DNA of 9,088 nucleotides from Candidatus Eiseniibacteriota bacterium (GTDB lineage Bacteria; JAFGKV01). The notes below the pieces were generated by a model. That model was given only the letters and a program-made list of their open reading frames with translations, did not search any database and was not told the origin of the DNA. Positions 1 through 8,266 of the stretch are shown one piece after another (the first letter of the stretch is position 1; each line of letters starts with the position of its first letter). A program made the translations under genes and the position numbers. The stretch is taken from the NCBI GenBank assembly GCA_025453925.1, contig JALOPK010000112.1, forward strand, positions 1-9,088, read 5' to 3'.

Positions 1-2
1 TT

Positions 3-1202
3 CTGTGCAGCCGCCGTTTCGATATCGTGGGCCTCTCGGTGGTGACCAGCCATCTGACACCCGCGACCGAGGTCAGCAGAATGGTGCGGACCATTGCTCC
101 ATCTGCAGTTATCGTCTGGGGCGGGGCGCATCCAACGGTCATGCTGGAAGAGACCGCCGCACGCCCGGAAGTTGACGTTGCCGTCGCGGGGGAAGGCGAG
201 ATGGTGCTTTCGGCGCTGGCCGATGACCCCGCGCGCCGTGACGTACCCGGGCTGGCGTTTCGGCGCGCAGGGGTGGTTGAGACCACGGGGCATGCCATGC
301 CCATCGCCGACCTTGATTCCCTTCCTTTCCCGGCCCGACACCTTGTGCCAATGGAGAGTTACCTTCGCTATTGGTACTCGCTGGACGCGGTGTCCCCCCG
401 CATGCGCGGCACCGGGATCATGGCGAGCAGGGGCTGTCCGTACCGATGCAGTTTCTGCCAGCCGACGCTGTCAAGGCTCTTCGGAAGGAAGGTGCGGAAG
501 CGTTCTCCTGCGAATATCGTGGCGGAACTTGAACACCTCCAACGCGACTACCACATTAATGGATTCATGTTCGAAGACTCGACGTTCGTGCTCGACAGGG
601 GCTGGGTACTTGCCGTGAGCGAGGCCGTTCGATCCACCGGTCTCGAGTGGTGCTGCAACATCCGGGCTGACCTGGTTGACGGGGAGCTGCTGGCCGCCAT
701 GGCCGCGGCCGGCCTCCGCAAAGTGAACATCGGCATCGAATCCGGTGTCCAGCGCATCCTCGACGAAGCCTATCAGAAGCAGATCACGCGCGTCGACGTC
801 GACCGCGTTGTCGCCATGTGCAGGAAGCTGGGGATCAAGGTGCAGGGGTACTTCATCCTCGGCGTGCCCATCGAGACGAGGGATGACATGCTCGAGACCA
901 TTCGCTACGCCGTTGGTCTCGATATCGATGACGCCGTCTTCGACATTGCGACGCCATTCCCCCAAACGCACATGTACGACAAGTGGAAGGAGCATGTCAC
1001 GGCTGACTTCGCGCAGTTCGACTGCTTCCAGAAGAGCGTCTTCCGCAACCTCCACGGGGTCTCGTCACGCTGGATCGAACGGGAGAAGCGACTCGCCTAT
1101 TTCCGGTTCTACCTGCACCCGAGACGCTGGGTCTACACCGCCCGCATGGTGGCGACCCCCACCGGGCTCGGCCGCACCCTCATGAAGGCTCGCCGGGTAT
1201 GA
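3..1202 (+). CDS. B12-binding domain radical SAM protein, 5' end cut by the window
   Basis: A radical SAM enzyme with an N-terminal cobalamin-binding domain. The frame is open from base 3 and reads LCSRRFDIVGLSVVTS, a typical inner part of the B12-binding fold, so the GTG at 27 is not the true start and the gene begins outside the window. Visible B12-domain marks are GGAHPT and GEGE. The [4Fe-4S]-binding motif is GCPYRCSFC, with cysteines at residues 137, 141 and 144 counted from base 27. After it come GIESG and FILGVP, typical of the radical SAM barrel. The stop overlaps the next start as ATGA (1199-1202), implying translational coupling with a second protein of the same family. Members include methyltransferases and ring-forming enzymes that act on unactivated carbons. 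The substrate cannot be read here; the neighbouring glycosyltransferases suggest a lipid or sugar. Family assignment is firm, function is not. Confidence 0.9.
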   Translation: MCSRRFDIVGLSVVTSHLTPATEVSRMVRTIAPSAVIVWGGAHPTVMLEETAARPEVDVAVAGEGEMVLSALADDPARRDVPGLAFRRAGVVETTGHAMPIADLDSLPFPARHLVPMESYLRYWYSLDAVSPRMRGTGIMASRGCPYRCSFCQPTLSRLFGRKVRKRSPANIVAELEHLQRDYHINGFMFEDSTFVLDRGWVLAVSEAVRSTGLEWCCNIRADLVDGELLAAMAAAGLRKVNIGIESGVQRILDEAYQKQITRVDVDRVVAMCRKLGIKVQGYFILGVPIETRDDMLETIRYAVGLDIDDAVFDIATPFPQTHMYDKWKEHVTADFAQFDCFQKSVFRNLHGVSSRWIEREKRLAYFRFYLHPRRWVYTARMVATPTGLGRTLMKARRV

Positions 1203-2626
1203 GAGTCCTGCTGGTCGTCCACGATTGCCTTACAATGCCGCTGGGTGTAGGCTACCTTGGCGCCGTCGCGCGGCGGGCGGGGCATGAGGTTCGACTCGGC
1301 ACGCTGCTGCACGACGACATCGTCGATCTGGCGCGTTCCTTCGGCGCGGATCTCGTTGGATTCACCGCGACGACCGGGTTCCATCTGAAGTATCTTGCAC
1401 TCGCGAAGGCCCTCAAGTCCGCGTTGCCGTCGGTCAGCGTTGTGATGGGAGGTGCGCATCCCACCTTCTTCCCGGAAGTGATCGAACGACACCCTGCGCT
1501 CGATGCAATTTGCATCGGCGAGGGAGAGGACGCTTTCGTGGAGTTCCTCGACGCCATGGAATCCGGGCGCGACCACACGACGGTGCGCAACTTCTGGGTT
1601 CGTGGACCGCGAAACGACATCGCCAGAAACCCCGTTCGACCTCGGATCGAGAACCTCGACGGCATTCCATTTCCAGATCGCACTCTGTGGCATCCTTACG
1701 CGCGAAGAATGACGCTCAAAACGCCGTTCGTCATGGCAGGACGCGGCTGCCCATACCGCTGCTCCTACTGCTTCAATCACGCCTACAACCGGCTCTATGC
1801 ATTCGACGGGCGCGTGCTGCGCCGTCGATCGGTGGACAATGTGCTCGCCGAATTGCGTAAGCTGAAGGCTGCCTACCCGGTTCAACTCGTCGTTTTCCAA
1901 GATGACATCTTCATCCTGGATCCCGAGTGGATCGCCGACTTTTCGATCCGATACCGCGCCGAGATCGCCGTCCCATTTCACTGCCACCTCCGCGCCAATC
2001 TCGTCACCAAGGGAGTCGTCGCGGCTTTGGCTGAGGCGGGCTGCGTGAGCATCAAGATGGCCGTCGAGTCGGCAGATGACGGCATCCGGAACGGCCTGCT
2101 CAAGCGCGGTATGACCCGGGACCAGATCGTGAACGCCACGAGTCTGGTGCGCGAGGCAGGGATCGTGCTGGTTACCCAGAACATCCTCGGGAACCCCGGC
2201 GAGACCATCAACCAGGCTCTCGAGACATTGCGGCTCAATATTACCTGCCAGCCGAGCTATGCCTTCGCAACGCTGCTTCAGCCTTACCCCCGCACCGAGA
2301 TCGGTGAGTACGTGCGGCAACAAGGTCTGCTGACGGAGGATCCATCCGAGGCCGATCATATCTCGTTCTTCGACCGCAGTACGCTCCAAATCCCCAACCG
2401 TGACCACATGGAGCGTTTGCGCATGCTCTTCCCGTTGGCAGTGGAATGGCCCTGGCTCCTCCGCGTGCTGCCGCTGTTGCTTCGTCTGCCTCTGGGGCGG
2501 CTGTATGGCGCGGCCGACAAGCTGTGGAAAGGATATGCCGTCAAGCACCGCGAGATGCCGTATCGACTTACCCTGCGAGAGTACCTCAACTCCTTGCGCG
2601 CGTACCTTTCGTCGAGCTACTACTGA
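1199..2626 (+). CDS. B12-binding domain radical SAM protein
   Basis: A complete 475-residue paralogue of the preceding gene. The N-terminus MRVLLVVHDCLTMPLGVGYL followed by a Rossmann-like region with GGAHPT and GEGED is the usual cobalamin-binding domain (about residues 1-135). The radical SAM core spans roughly 175-380, with the cluster motif GRGCPYRCSYC and cysteines at 184, 188 and 191. The C-terminal 90 residues contain a hydrophobic patch (WPWLLRVLPLLLRLPL) that could touch the membrane, fitting a lipid-linked substrate, although this is inference. The ATG start is set by the 4-base overlap with the upstream gene and by the exact family N-terminus. The stop is 19 nt before the ATG of the following glycosyltransferase. 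The two radical SAM genes match across the whole barrel but are clearly diverged, so they probably act on different carbons or substrates. Confidence 0.92.
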   Translation: MRVLLVVHDCLTMPLGVGYLGAVARRAGHEVRLGTLLHDDIVDLARSFGADLVGFTATTGFHLKYLALAKALKSALPSVSVVMGGAHPTFFPEVIERHPALDAICIGEGEDAFVEFLDAMESGRDHTTVRNFWVRGPRNDIARNPVRPRIENLDGIPFPDRTLWHPYARRMTLKTPFVMAGRGCPYRCSYCFNHAYNRLYAFDGRVLRRRSVDNVLAELRKLKAAYPVQLVVFQDDIFILDPEWIADFSIRYRAEIAVPFHCHLRANLVTKGVVAALAEAGCVSIKMAVESADDGIRNGLLKRGMTRDQIVNATSLVREAGIVLVTQNILGNPGETINQALETLRLNITCQPSYAFATLLQPYPRTEIGEYVRQQGLLTEDPSEADHISFFDRSTLQIPNRDHMERLRMLFPLAVEWPWLLRVLPLLLRLPLGRLYGAADKLWKGYAVKHREMPYRLTLREYLNSLRAYLSSSYY

Positions 2627-2645
2627 CGTGCGACTCGCCGCTTCT

Positions 2646-3350
2646 ATGGGCTCCGACACACTCTCGGTGGTGCTGCCCGCCTACAATGAGGAGGGCAACA
2701 TCGAGGTGGCGATCAGCGCAGCGCTGGAGGCGTTGTCCTCTTGCGTGAGGGACCTCGAAGTTATCGTCGTGAATGACTGTTCGCTTGATCGCACGGGCGA
2801 GCTGGCCGCGAGCTACGCCCACCGCGACAGCCGAGTACGAGTGGTCTCCAATCCCCACAATCTTGGGCTTGGCGGATCCATGCGGGCGGGATTCGAGGCC
2901 TCCCGAGGATCACTGGTGTTCTACACCGATTCCGACTTGCCCATTGACATGCACGATGTTCCCAGAGCCCTCCCGCTGTTGGCTCGGTACGATTTCGTGG
3001 CAGGGTACCGGCTCAACCGTGACGAGGGCTTTCGACGCGCCTTCTACTCGTGGGCCTATAACCGCCTAGTGCGTGTGTTGTTTCACCTCCCCGTACGCGA
3101 CGTGAACTTCTCGTTCAAACTGATCAAACGTTCGGTGTTGGAACGGGTAGAACTGCGTTCGCTGGGCTCGTTCATCGACGCGGAACTCCTGGCGGAGGCG
3201 GTTGCGGCGTGATTGACCTTCGGTGAGCTTGGTGTGTGCTACCGCCCGCGAGTATGGGGCACGTCGACCCTGGCGTCGCCACGGGTAATCCGGGGCATTC
3301 TTCGGGAACTGGCCTCCTACATCCGATGGAGGAGGTCGGGACGCCGGTGA
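2646..3350 (+). pseudogene. DPM1-like family 2 glycosyltransferase interrupted by an in-frame TGA at 3210
   Basis: A GT-A glycosyltransferase related to dolichol/undecaprenyl-phosphate sugar transferases, which move a sugar from a nucleotide donor to polyprenyl phosphate at the cytoplasmic membrane face. Visible marks are LSVVLPAYNEE (residues 6-16), VVNDCSLDRT, the metal-binding DSD at 95-97, and the late block DVNFSFKLIKR. A TGA at codon 189 (3210-3212) ends an open frame of 188 residues, but the same frame continues for 45 more codons with GELGVCYRPRVWGTSTL and LASPRVIRGILREL, the normal family C-terminus, and stops at 3348-3350. The full frame would give 234 residues, the usual length. 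By spacing, the TGA stands where the family has a glycine (as in RRxGxxIxE), so a GGA-to-TGA change explains it. The shortened product keeps the catalytic domain and may retain some activity. The ATG start gives the family N-terminus; GTG at 2628 is an alternative. Confidence 0.82.
3328..3336 (+). promoter_or_regulatory. Ribosome binding site deciding the methyltransferase start
   Basis: GGAGGAGGT lies 10 nt before GTG 3347 and matches the anti-Shine-Dalgarno sequence strongly. It sits inside the last codons of the glycosyltransferase frame. It supports GTG 3347 as the start rather than the in-frame GTG at 3236, whose translation down to 3346 would be out-of-frame glycosyltransferase coding sequence. 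Confidence 0.6.
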
Positions 3351-4090
3351 GCACCGTGCCCGGGTCCGGCACAGGGGAATGGCCCGCACGACTCTCCCCG
3401 GCACCCCGCCGACGAACCGCACAGGACTTGGCCGCTCTCGCTCGAACCCTGTGTGCCTATGCCGTCGGCGGTCCGTGGCCGCTGCTGCGCGCCTCATGGC
3501 GTTTCGCGTCTGCTCCTCTGGCGAGAGTCGCGGCGGTTCTCCCTCAGGAAGGAACCATCGTGGACGTTGGCTGCGGTCAGGGGCACTTCCTGCGGTACTG
3601 CCTTGAGACGGGCCACCAACGCCTCATCGGCGTTGAACTCAGTTCACGGTCTCTCACGCGTGCGCGGGTCTGTCTCCCTCCTGCGGTGCGGCTCGTTCGC
3701 GCCGCAGCGGAAACGCTCCCCCTGCGAGGTGCAGCGTGCGTCGTCGTGCTGGATGTACTCTACCTGCTTGAGCCACGAAGCCAGGAGATGTTTCTTGCTT
3801 CGGCTGCGGTGGCCCTGCAGCCAGGCGGATTCCTGATCATCAAGACCATGGAACCGAGCCGGCGAATCAGGCAGACGCTCAACCGTCTACAGGAATGGTT
3901 GGCAGTGAGAGTCCTTCACATCACATTGGGGCGTGATTTCCACTTTCGCAGCTCGACCGAGTGGGTATCCTTGTGCCGTCGGCACGGCATGTCGGCATAC
4001 AGCGTTCCCCTTTGGCGGGGGTATGTTCACCCGCACGTCATGATTGTGGCTCGGCGGATCGACGGAGAGCCGACCCAACCCCAGGGATAG
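3347..4090 (+). CDS. Class I SAM-dependent methyltransferase
   Basis: A 247-residue Rossmann-fold methyltransferase (type 11-like). Motif I, IVDVGCGQG, at residues 71-79 binds S-adenosylmethionine. LIGVELS carries the acidic end of strand 2, AAAETLPL corresponds to the motif II region, and VVLDVLYLLE plus LQPGGFLIIKTMEP are the later core motifs. The first 65 residues are Arg/Ala-rich, without a known domain. The start is GTG 3347, which forms a GTGA overlap with the second stop of the upstream glycosyltransferase frame and has a strong ribosome binding site. Coupled translation would therefore be expected once the glycosyltransferase is read to its natural end. The acceptor is unknown. Position between glycosyltransferase and epimerase genes suggests a sugar, lipid or glycan methylation, perhaps together with the radical SAM proteins. 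The fold call is firm and the substrate is open. Confidence 0.88.
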   Translation: MSTVPGSGTGEWPARLSPAPRRRTAQDLAALARTLCAYAVGGPWPLLRASWRFASAPLARVAAVLPQEGTIVDVGCGQGHFLRYCLETGHQRLIGVELSSRSLTRARVCLPPAVRLVRAAAETLPLRGAACVVVLDVLYLLEPRSQEMFLASAAVALQPGGFLIIKTMEPSRRIRQTLNRLQEWLAVRVLHITLGRDFHFRSSTEWVSLCRRHGMSAYSVPLWRGYVHPHVMIVARRIDGEPTQPQG

Positions 4091-4130: not shown

Positions 4131-5066
4131 GTGAGAGTGCTGGTTACCGGCGGCGCCGGTTTCATCGGGTCCCAGATACAGGATGAACTCCTATCACGCG
4201 GCCACGAGGTGGTGGTCGTCGACGATCTCTCGACGGGACATCGGGAGAACGTCAACACACGCGCCGTCTTCCAACAGCTTGACATAGGAGATGAACGCCT
4301 CGGCGAGGTGTTCGCGGCATACCGGCCTGAGGCGGTCTTCCATCTTGCCGCGCAGATGGATGTGAGACGATCCGTCCGGGAGCCCGTCTACGACGCGCAG
4401 GTGAACATTCTTGGCTCTCTCCGTCTTCTGGAGCTGTGCCGGCAGCACGGCACGCGGCGGGTGGTCTATGCATCGACCGGGGGCGCCATCTACGGTGAGC
4501 CTGAGTACCTCCCGGCCGACGAATCACACCCCATCAATCCCATAAGCCAGTACGGCATCTCGAAGCATACCGTTGAGCACTACCTGCGTTTATACTGGCA
4601 GAACCACGGCGTGTCATACCTGGCGTTGCGGTTCCCGAATGTGTATGGTCCCCGTCAGGACCCCCATGGCGAGGCAGGCGTTGTAGCGATCTTCAGCCTC
4701 CAGATGCTAACCGGCACGCAACCCGTCATCTTCGGCGATGGTTCGAAGACCCGCGACTATGTATTCATCGGCGACATCGTCCGGGCCGGCCTAATCGGAC
4801 TCGACAGCACCGTGGTAGGTGTCTACAATCTTGGTTGGGGCAACGAGATCACCGATTTGACCATCTTCGACACGGTGCGCCGGGCAATCGGCATCAACGT
4901 GGAACCCCGGTTCGCTCCGCGACGGCTCGGTGAAGTGGAACGCATATGTCTGGATGCGCGGCGTGCCCGGGAAGATCTGGGCTGGCTTCCTACGGTATCT
5001 CTCGAAGAGGGGATCGCCAGGGCCGTCGAATACTACCGGTCGAACCCCCACGGTTTCCGGGCGTAG
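4131..5066 (+). CDS. NAD-dependent epimerase, UDP-glucose 4-epimerase (GalE)-like
   Basis: An extended short-chain dehydrogenase/reductase of 311 residues, the normal size for this group. NAD binds at the N-terminal TGGAGFIGS (residues 6-14). Further family marks are VVDDLSTG, HLAAQMDVRRS, the catalytic STGG (S115/T116) and YGISK (Y141, K145), then NVYGPRQDPHGEAGVVAIF and GDGSKTRDYVFIGD, typical of bacterial GalE-type proteins. The reaction is most likely reversible C4 epimerisation of a UDP-hexose, giving a UDP-galactose-type donor, although close relatives act on GlcNAc or uronic acid forms. The ORF is open further upstream, but the GTG at 4131 gives the exact family start and has a ribosome binding site, leaving 40 nt after the methyltransferase. 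It probably supplies a sugar donor to the glycosyltransferases in this cluster. The exact substrate is uncertain, so no gene symbol is given. Confidence 0.9.
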   Translation: MRVLVTGGAGFIGSQIQDELLSRGHEVVVVDDLSTGHRENVNTRAVFQQLDIGDERLGEVFAAYRPEAVFHLAAQMDVRRSVREPVYDAQVNILGSLRLLELCRQHGTRRVVYASTGGAIYGEPEYLPADESHPINPISQYGISKHTVEHYLRLYWQNHGVSYLALRFPNVYGPRQDPHGEAGVVAIFSLQMLTGTQPVIFGDGSKTRDYVFIGDIVRAGLIGLDSTVVGVYNLGWGNEITDLTIFDTVRRAIGINVEPRFAPRRLGEVERICLDARRAREDLGWLPTVSLEEGIARAVEYYRSNPHGFRA

Positions 5067-5315: not shown

Positions 5316-6716
5316 ATGGCGATGAATTCGCGGGTCTCCAAAGCGAGTTGCGAGCCGGGAGACTCGCCACATGGTGTGCAGCGAACGCGCCACGCGGGCA
5401 TACCGCTTGGGGCGGTATTCGCAGCAGCGTTGGCCATCCGGCTGGCAGCGCTGGTGGTGGCGATCGAGGCGCCCTTGGGAGAGGGCGAAATCCTCCTTGA
5501 TGCCGCAGGCAACATTGCCGCCGGGCGCGGCCTGTGCCTTTCGGATTCACTCTTGCGGGTCCCAGAAGGAGCCCCGCCCATCCTCAGGCGCACGATCGAG
5601 CAGTGGGCCGCCGCGGGTGGTGTATGGGGCGTGGTTCCCCCGGGCAGACCCACTGCTTTCCTTCCGCCGCTGTACCCGTGTCTCCTCAGTCTCTTCATCC
5701 GCTGCCCTTCGGGGGTGCTACTCGCCCGGCTTCTCGGAGTGATGATGGGCTCCGCGACCGTCGCCATGGCCTACGCGACAGCCCGACGATGGTCCACGGT
5801 CGCTGCCCCGTTCGTCGCAATCCTGGCCGTGTGCGATCCTCTGGCGGCATTTCAATCCGCGGAGATCTCGACCCATCACCTGGCTGCATTCACCGTGATG
5901 CTCCCGGTCTGTCTCGTGAGCATTCGCGGTGCCGGCTGGGGATGGGCATGGGCCGCCGGGTCTGCCGCCGGGGTTGCGTTCCTTGCCCGGCCGACCGCCT
6001 GGATGCTCCTACCCCTGCTGGCTCTGGCAGTACGGTGGAACCCTCATCGAGTGCGACATGCGGGTCTCTTTGTCCTGAGCGCGGCGGTCGTGGTCTCGCC
6101 GTGGGTTGTTCGCAATGCGCTCCAGCTCGGTCGTCCATTGCTCCTCACCACGAACGGAGGTCGAAACCTTTGGGAGTTCAATAACCAGAAGTTGGGGCCG
6201 GAGTACGCGTGGTCCGAGCCTCAAGTCAGCCGTTCGCTGTATGATCCCATACGACAGCGGTATGGCGACTCACTGTTGCGTCCGGAACTGCTTCCGTTCC
6301 CCTCATTTTCCTCGGAGTCTGAGTTGGCAAGAGACCGACTACTACGCGCCAATTTCGCGGGCTTTGCCCGCGCCAACCCTCGCGCATACGCCGAACTGGT
6401 CGGCGTTCGCGTGACCCAGATTCTGGCACTCTGGCCTCTCCACTCACCCACGTGGCTGCGGATGGTGTTCGCGGCGCACTCGCTCCCGATTCTCGTGCTG
6501 GCGTGTATCGGCACGTGGCTGGCCATTCGAGGACAAGGGCTCCGCTTGGCGGTTGGCCTGTTCGTACTGCTCTTCTTCGCGCTCCACGCCCTCACCGCCG
6601 CAGGGTTTGTGTATCGTGGGATGATCGCCCCCTTCGTAGCACTGCTGGCCGGGGACGGTGCCGTCTGGCTCGGTGGTGTGGCGCGGCCCACCCGGGAATC
6701 CGGCGTGACCTCATGA
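5316..6716 (+). CDS. GT39-like (PMT/ArnT superfamily) membrane glycosyltransferase
   Basis: A 466-residue polytopic membrane protein of the GT-C type, which transfers sugars from lipid-phosphate donors on the outer face of the cytoplasmic membrane. Hydrophobic segments lie at about 29-50, 115-128, 133-155, 162-178, 188-203, 208-240, 247-265 and several near the C-terminus. Family-like marks are GEILLDAAGNIAAGRGL in the first outer loop (acidic residues here are the expected catalytic area), PPGRPTAFLPPLYP, LARPTAW, SPWVVRNALQLGRPLLLTTN with GGRNLWEFNN, and near the end YRGMIAPFVALLAGDG. Starts at ATG 5316 and ATG 5322 are both possible; AGAGG at 5311-5315 is better spaced for 5322 and GAGGT at 5306-5310 for 5316. 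It would use the lipid-linked sugar made by a DPM1-like enzyme, as encoded upstream. Its stop overlaps yhhQ as ATGA. The acceptor is unknown. Confidence 0.8.
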   Translation: MAMNSRVSKASCEPGDSPHGVQRTRHAGIPLGAVFAAALAIRLAALVVAIEAPLGEGEILLDAAGNIAAGRGLCLSDSLLRVPEGAPPILRRTIEQWAAAGGVWGVVPPGRPTAFLPPLYPCLLSLFIRCPSGVLLARLLGVMMGSATVAMAYATARRWSTVAAPFVAILAVCDPLAAFQSAEISTHHLAAFTVMLPVCLVSIRGAGWGWAWAAGSAAGVAFLARPTAWMLLPLLALAVRWNPHRVRHAGLFVLSAAVVVSPWVVRNALQLGRPLLLTTNGGRNLWEFNNQKLGPEYAWSEPQVSRSLYDPIRQRYGDSLLRPELLPFPSFSSESELARDRLLRANFAGFARANPRAYAELVGVRVTQILALWPLHSPTWLRMVFAAHSLPILVLACIGTWLAIRGQGLRLAVGLFVLLFFALHALTAAGFVYRGMIAPFVALLAGDGAVWLGGVARPTRESGVTS

Positions 6717-7589: not shown

Positions 7590-7678
7590 TGGCGGAGGGG
7601 GTGGGATTCGAACCCACGGACCCCAGAGGGGTCAACGGTTTTCGAGACCGCCCCGTTCGACCGCTCCGGCACCCCTCC
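7590..7678 (-). tRNA. tRNA-Ser, anticodon CGA
   Basis: The minus strand folds as a class II tRNA of 86 nt plus encoded CCA (7590-7592). The acceptor stem is GGAGGGG/CCCCTCC with discriminator G, correct for serine. The anticodon stem-loop GCGGT-CTCGAAA-ACCGT places CGA at 7644-7642, reading UCG. The long variable arm GACCCC-TCT-GGGGTC (7619-7633) is diagnostic of Ser/Leu/Tyr tRNAs. The T arm is GTGGG-TTCGAAT-CCCAC. The tadA reading frame overlaps the 5' half of this tRNA by 47 nt and stops inside it. No clear separate promoter was seen in tadA, so the tRNA may be cut from a tadA-containing transcript. Confidence 0.97.
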
Positions 7679-8180
7679 GCACTGATTCTCCGCGCATGGC
7701 CGAGAAAAACCCGCGCAGCAGCGCCTCGCTCTCGGCGGCAAGTATTCCCTTCCGTACCGACAGCCTGCCCGCGAGTCTCGCACTCACCAGCAGATCGGTG
7801 GTCGAGCCACACGCACCCATGGTAGGATCCTGGGCGCCGAACACAAGCACGCCCACTCTGGCGAGCAGGATCGCCCCGGCGCACATAGCGCAGGGCTCCA
7901 GTGTTACGTAGAGCTCGACATCGGGGAGGCGCCAGCTACCCAGCGCAGACCCCGCGGCACCAAGGGCGATGATCTCGGCGTGGGCCGTTGGATCACACAA
8001 GGCCTCACATCTGTTGTGCCCCCGACCCACCACGACGCCGCCATTGACCACGACGGCCCCGACCGGGACCTCCCCTTCGTCAAGGGCACGAGCCGCTTCG
8101 CGGAATGCCTCCTGCATCCATTTCTGATCGTCGGATGGTGGAGCGTTCACGAAGGGGTATCCATTGGTGAGGGCAGACAC
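7632..8180 (-). CDS. tadA: tRNA-specific adenosine deaminase TadA
   Basis: TadA converts adenosine-34 of tRNA-Arg(ACG) to inosine so that one tRNA reads CGU, CGC and CGA. The protein (182 residues from GTG 8180) has the core EVPVGAVVV, the catalytic HAE (H67, E69), TLEPCAMCAG with zinc ligands C97 and C100, and VVFGA-like VLVFGAQDPTMGACGS. Its normal end is near LLRGFFSAMRG; beyond that, the frame runs into tRNA-Ser and adds about 15 residues (168-182) that look like translated tRNA, stopping at 7634-7632. The start is uncertain: GTG 8180 and GTG 8150 are both in frame and neither has a good ribosome binding site. GTG 8150 would give a more usual short N-terminus. The gene lies 9 nt downstream of tRNA-Arg(ACG), its own substrate. 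Confidence 0.93.
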   Translation of the reverse strand: MSALTNGYPFVNAPPSDDQKWMQEAFREAARALDEGEVPVGAVVVNGGVVVGRGHNRCEALCDPTAHAEIIALGAAGSALGSWRLPDVELYVTLEPCAMCAGAILLARVGVLVFGAQDPTMGACGSTTDLLVSARLAGRLSVRKGILAAESEALLRGFFSAMRGESVRRGAGAVERGGLENR

Positions 8181-8189
8181 AAAGTAGGC

Positions 8190-8266
8190 TGGTACGCCCA
8201 GGAGGAGTCGAACCCCCAGCCTTCTGGTCCGTAGCCAGACGCTCTGTCCAGTTGAGCTATGGGCGC
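8190..8266 (-). tRNA. tRNA-Arg, anticodon ACG
   Basis: The minus strand gives a 74-nt tRNA plus encoded CCA (8190-8192). The acceptor stem is GCGCCCA/TGGGCGT with a G-U first pair and discriminator A. The D arm contains GCTC-AACTGGACA-GAGC. The anticodon stem-loop TCTGG-CTACGGA-CCAGA places ACG at 8232-8230. The T arm is GGGGG-TTCGACT-CCTCC with one G-U pair. In bacteria this is the tRNA whose A34 is deaminated to inosine by TadA, encoded immediately downstream on the same strand. Confidence 0.97.

Follow-up and report, generated by a model that had tools for sequence, protein, structure and literature searches.

The interrupted gene and its neighbourhood

The window, of 9,088 nucleotides, comprises an entire contig (G000:C87) from a draft genome of 3.9 Mb in 502 contigs, which is 82% complete and was assembled from an environmental sample. 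Its forward strand begins inside a B12-binding radical SAM gene (3..1202), which is cut by the contig start and otherwise intact, followed by a second, intact gene of the same kind (1199..2626); both belong to the conserved gene order. A GT2 glycosyltransferase gene comes next and is the subject of this work. It is followed by an intact SAM methyltransferase-like gene (3347..4090; Pfam PF13649/PF13489; orthologues at 72% and 52%), an intact NAD-dependent sugar epimerase/dehydratase gene (4134..5066; PF01370, E 5.1e-60; orthologues at 86% and 71%) and an intact gene for a membrane protein, which is probably PMT/GT-C-like (5316..6716; orthologues at 63% and 49%). The membrane protein itself has no Pfam match; of its three aligned orthologues, one has a match to PF13231 (PMT_2) at 8.6e-12.

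The GT2 gene is divided by a stop codon. The part before the stop (2628..3209, forward strand, starting at GTG 2628 or ATG 2646) encodes a DPM1/GtrB/ArnC-like catalytic domain, recognized by Pfam, orthologues and a structure match; the Pfam match (PF00535) has an E-value of 5.3e-27 and 95.2 bits, well over the cut-off of 23.3. A premature in-frame TGA at 3210..3212 (forward strand) stands directly after AELLAEAVAA. Beyond it, 45 open codons (3213-3347) encode LTFGELGVCYRPRVWGTSTLASPRVIRGILRELASYIRWRRSGRR and run up to a second TGA at 3348-3350. The region 3213..3350 (forward strand) is the separated C-terminal part of the gene, as indicated by tblastn, orthologues, homologue columns and the structure model, and the second TGA is the ancestral stop, which a possible GTG start of the methyltransferase-like gene overlaps (GTGA). 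This arrangement had been described in a sequence-only reading of the window, and every element of it is seen in the sequence. That reading placed the stop at codon 189, which is correct when counting from ATG 2646 and corresponds to codon 195 from GTG 2628. The GT2 locus is single-copy, and a search for a second, intact copy of the gene elsewhere in the genome found none.

Two genomes served for comparison: G001, the only other genome of the same genus returned by the search, and G002, from the same family. In tblastn with the read-through protein, the alignment crosses the stop in both orthologues, at 77% identity in G001 (231 aa) and 60% in G002 (234 aa), and the 45 downstream codons alone match them at 6.9e-15 and 2.1e-11, respectively, well outside what chance would give. 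Both orthologues (on G001:C201 and G002:C155), which are 76% and 59% identical to the window gene, are intact, collinear with the window locus and free of a stop at this position. All three genomes share the order radical SAM, radical SAM, GT2, methyltransferase, epimerase, membrane protein, and the remaining genes of the cluster in the window are full length, barring the truncation of the first by the contig start. As the same-genus and same-family orthologues read straight through, and as the downstream block is conserved and constrained (see below), the 45 codons are real coding sequence. This supports the earlier view of a full-length, DPM1-like gene that one in-frame TGA has broken in two; none of the homologues was seen to stop at this position, and the downstream codons match the GT2 family.

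In G001:C201 and G002:C155, the first radical SAM gene is immediately preceded by another GT2 gene, which shares about 41% identity with the interrupted one. The window contig begins inside that radical SAM gene, and the corresponding position is therefore outside the window. At 7632-8266 on the reverse strand of the window, a tRNA-Arg whose anticodon is ACG, the tRNA on which TadA usually acts, is followed directly, on the same strand, by a gene for a tadA-like tRNA adenosine deaminase. A tRNA-Ser (CGA) predicted at 7590-7678 on this strand shares 47 bases with the 3' end of the deaminase frame (7632-8180), which thus seems to terminate within the tRNA gene.

Fold of the read-through protein and the part beyond the stop

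A structure model was built on the read-through sequence (mean pLDDT 80.5, pTM 0.82). Its best match is the dolichol-phosphate mannose synthase (DPMS) of Pyrococcus furiosus (5mlz; Z 25.8, rmsd 2.9 Å over 227 residues), followed by the undecaprenyl-phosphate glycosyltransferases ArnC and GtrB (9bhe, 9nyd, 5ekp), which have the same fold (Z about 22) and a similar reaction class. With P. furiosus DPMS (PDB 5mlz/5mm1/9ep0), itself a GT2 enzyme, the window gene shares the GT-A catalytic domain and the DxD motif, which reads D101-S-D103 in the read-through sequence with D103 present in 40 of 40 homologues. The two differ in that the window gene encodes no transmembrane domain, is interrupted by TGA, is only about 27% identical, and has Pro (DSDLPID) in place of the motif Gln of DADLQH. 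ArnC and GtrB are more distant, with 21–22% identity and C-terminal transmembrane helices that are absent from the window gene, and the protein lies far below the NCBIfam cut-offs (52.7 versus 529 bits for ArnC). The gene encodes a putative, polyprenyl-phosphate-sugar-synthase-like GT2 glycosyltransferase.

In the model, the stop falls directly after a helix (183-193). Beyond it lie a core strand (198-203), a loop with R208 and G211, and a C-terminal helix (218-238), the loop belonging to an acceptor-loop block of the form Y-R-P-R-x-x-G-x-S-T. The acceptor-loop Arg and the following G-x-S are thus present in the gene, only after the premature stop. Here, R208 and G211 are invariant in 40 of 40 homologues, and S213 is found in 23 of 40.

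The role of this region is known from P. furiosus DPMS, whose A-loop, which spans residues 202-210 and includes Arg202, closes over the donor; Arg202 couples donor binding, and an interface helix, IFH2, follows the A-loop and takes part in acceptor binding (PMC5526996). The equivalent of the A-loop Arg lies in the post-stop block of the window gene: model residues 7..241 align to 5mlz residues -2..235, and this register, which is the range given by the structural aligner since a fragment sequence search for an alignment to 5mlz gave no match, puts R208 near 202. The phosphate-binding residues of the archaeal enzyme are Arg117, Arg131 and Ser135 (PMC5526996). R128, R137 and S141 of the window protein are invariant in a four-sequence alignment, and their fit with the 131/135 spacing is by eye only.

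If the stop is real, termination would occur after 194 codons and would yield a protein that lacks the last core strand, the acceptor loop and the membrane-interface helix. A P. furiosus DPMS variant without residues 230-352 is still active (PMC5526996). The premature stop cuts about 40 residues before the equivalent of that point and removes both acceptor loop and interface helix, and for this reason the 194-codon product is, judging from the model, very probably inactive.

Divergence across the stop and the codon at its position

The ratio of divergence at codon positions 1 and 2 to that at position 3, relative to G001, is 0.35 both before the stop (0.168/0.479) and after it (0.267/0.756). 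In addition, the codon alignment with G001 contains no second stop or frameshift in the GT2 gene. The equal ratios and the lack of a second lesion point to constraint on the full-length gene that lasted through most of the period after its divergence from G001.

Third-position divergence itself is higher after the stop (34 of 45 codons versus 93 of 194; Fisher p 0.0009), which suggested recombination or a chimeric contig at this point. This was rejected, as a nucleotide alignment with G001 runs across the stop and has the same length in both sequences (10-3301 versus 13222-16513), and as the genes around it are collinear orthologues in which the divergence blocks are similar. Across the cluster, third-position divergence in 45-codon blocks ranges from 0.40 to 0.76, with another block reaching the post-stop level, and we therefore read the difference as regional noise.

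At the stop site, the three nearest homologues in the codon alignment carry GGC, GGC and GGA, all Gly, and the two nearest orthologues are those with GGC. Gly occupies the column in 31 of 40 closer homologues and in 51 of the approximately 93 homologues that cover it, followed by Arg, Lys and Asn; Trp occurs in three, and neither a stop nor Cys occurs in any of these approximately 93. The proposal that the stop stands at a conserved glycine thus holds for the three nearest orthologues and most closer homologues, but in the wider set Gly is found in little more than half. The related proposal of a single GGA-to-TGA change describes a possible single step that is not demonstrated. As GGC in the two nearest orthologues is two changes away from TGA, this path requires an intermediate codon, for example GGA.

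Readings of the in-frame UGA and their meaning

Could the UGA be decoded instead of ending translation? Selenocysteine was considered seriously, as the genome holds a tRNA-Sec (78.8 bits, anticodon TCA) and a full-length SelB, so that the organism is able to insert this residue at UGA and might make a full-length selenoprotein glycosyltransferase. This was rejected because a SECIS-like signal and a Cys at the column are both lacking, and we consider it highly improbable. Downstream of the UGA, the RNA folds less stably than its shuffled versions (z +1.57; 191 of 200 shuffles at least as stable), and a crude bSECIS stem-loop scan gives the site a score that 52% of the positions in the window equal or exceed, both being simple tests that use no trained SECIS model. 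The orthologues have Gly, no homologue has TGA, and no redox role in GT2 catalysis is known for the residue at this column. The selenocysteine loci are found at G000:C26:8188-8281 and G000:C170:4813-6693, and SelB is also present in both relatives; real selenoproteins with in-frame TGA codons are thus to be expected elsewhere in the lineage. General reassignment of UGA, for which the open frame is the one point in favor, is ruled out by the presence of RF2 and by 171 domain matches from three large families of this genome (46, 73 and 52), none with an internal stop; most window genes also end in TGA.

If a near-cognate tRNA, such as that for Trp, or a suppressor read the UGA often enough to be useful, some full-length enzyme would be made. 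Such readthrough would agree with the downstream codons being as constrained as the upstream ones and with Trp at the column in three homologues; recency of the stop alone, however, accounts for this constraint, since the relative used to measure it is a distant one. No other genome compared shares the stop, RF2 is present and no readthrough signal was identified, all of which leaves this reading improbable. Near-cognate readthrough at a low level may occur, although no observation points to it. It is more doubtful still that the UGA serves, by programmed or tolerated readthrough, to restrict how much full-length glycosyltransferase the lineage makes. Tolerated readthrough had been among the initial suggestions and finds no support here, with neither a selenocysteine signal nor recoding elsewhere. 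That the short form is a real, functional protein and the downstream match a relic is equally as improbable as selenocysteine insertion: we found no point in its support, no homologue was seen to end here, and the lost block holds the core strand, acceptor loop and helix together with the residues invariant in all 40 homologues.

What remains, with high confidence, is that the TGA, which stands alone, arose by a recent nonsense substitution in the sampled strain or is a one-base error of the draft consensus, the substitution being moderately favored. In either case, an ordinary GT2 gene in a conserved sugar/radical-SAM cluster carries one premature TGA in this sequence. Recent mutation, strain variation and base error had all been named at the outset, and they remain the best readings. 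Strain-level nonsense pseudogenes and draft consensus errors present the same picture of one in-frame stop, intact flanks and intact orthologues, and no feature distinguishes the window case from them. The recency of the stop, termination at the TGA and the inactivity of the product are inferred, while the stop itself, the intact orthologues, the conserved synteny, the constraint on both sides, the single copy and the lack of recoding signals are observed.

The genome has 46 GT2-domain matches, and redundancy for the lost copy is therefore possible. The suggestion that its loss would starve a GT39-like enzyme downstream is speculative, as the membrane protein in question has no Pfam match of its own, PMT_2 is matched by one orthologue, and those 46 matches exist. 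The finding has few consequences outside annotation, in which the gene is best flagged as a GT2 gene that may be broken, and neither as a short GT2 protein nor as a recoded one. A genuine stop would amount to a loss, at the level of the strain, within a conserved and sugar-related cluster of this uncultured lineage.
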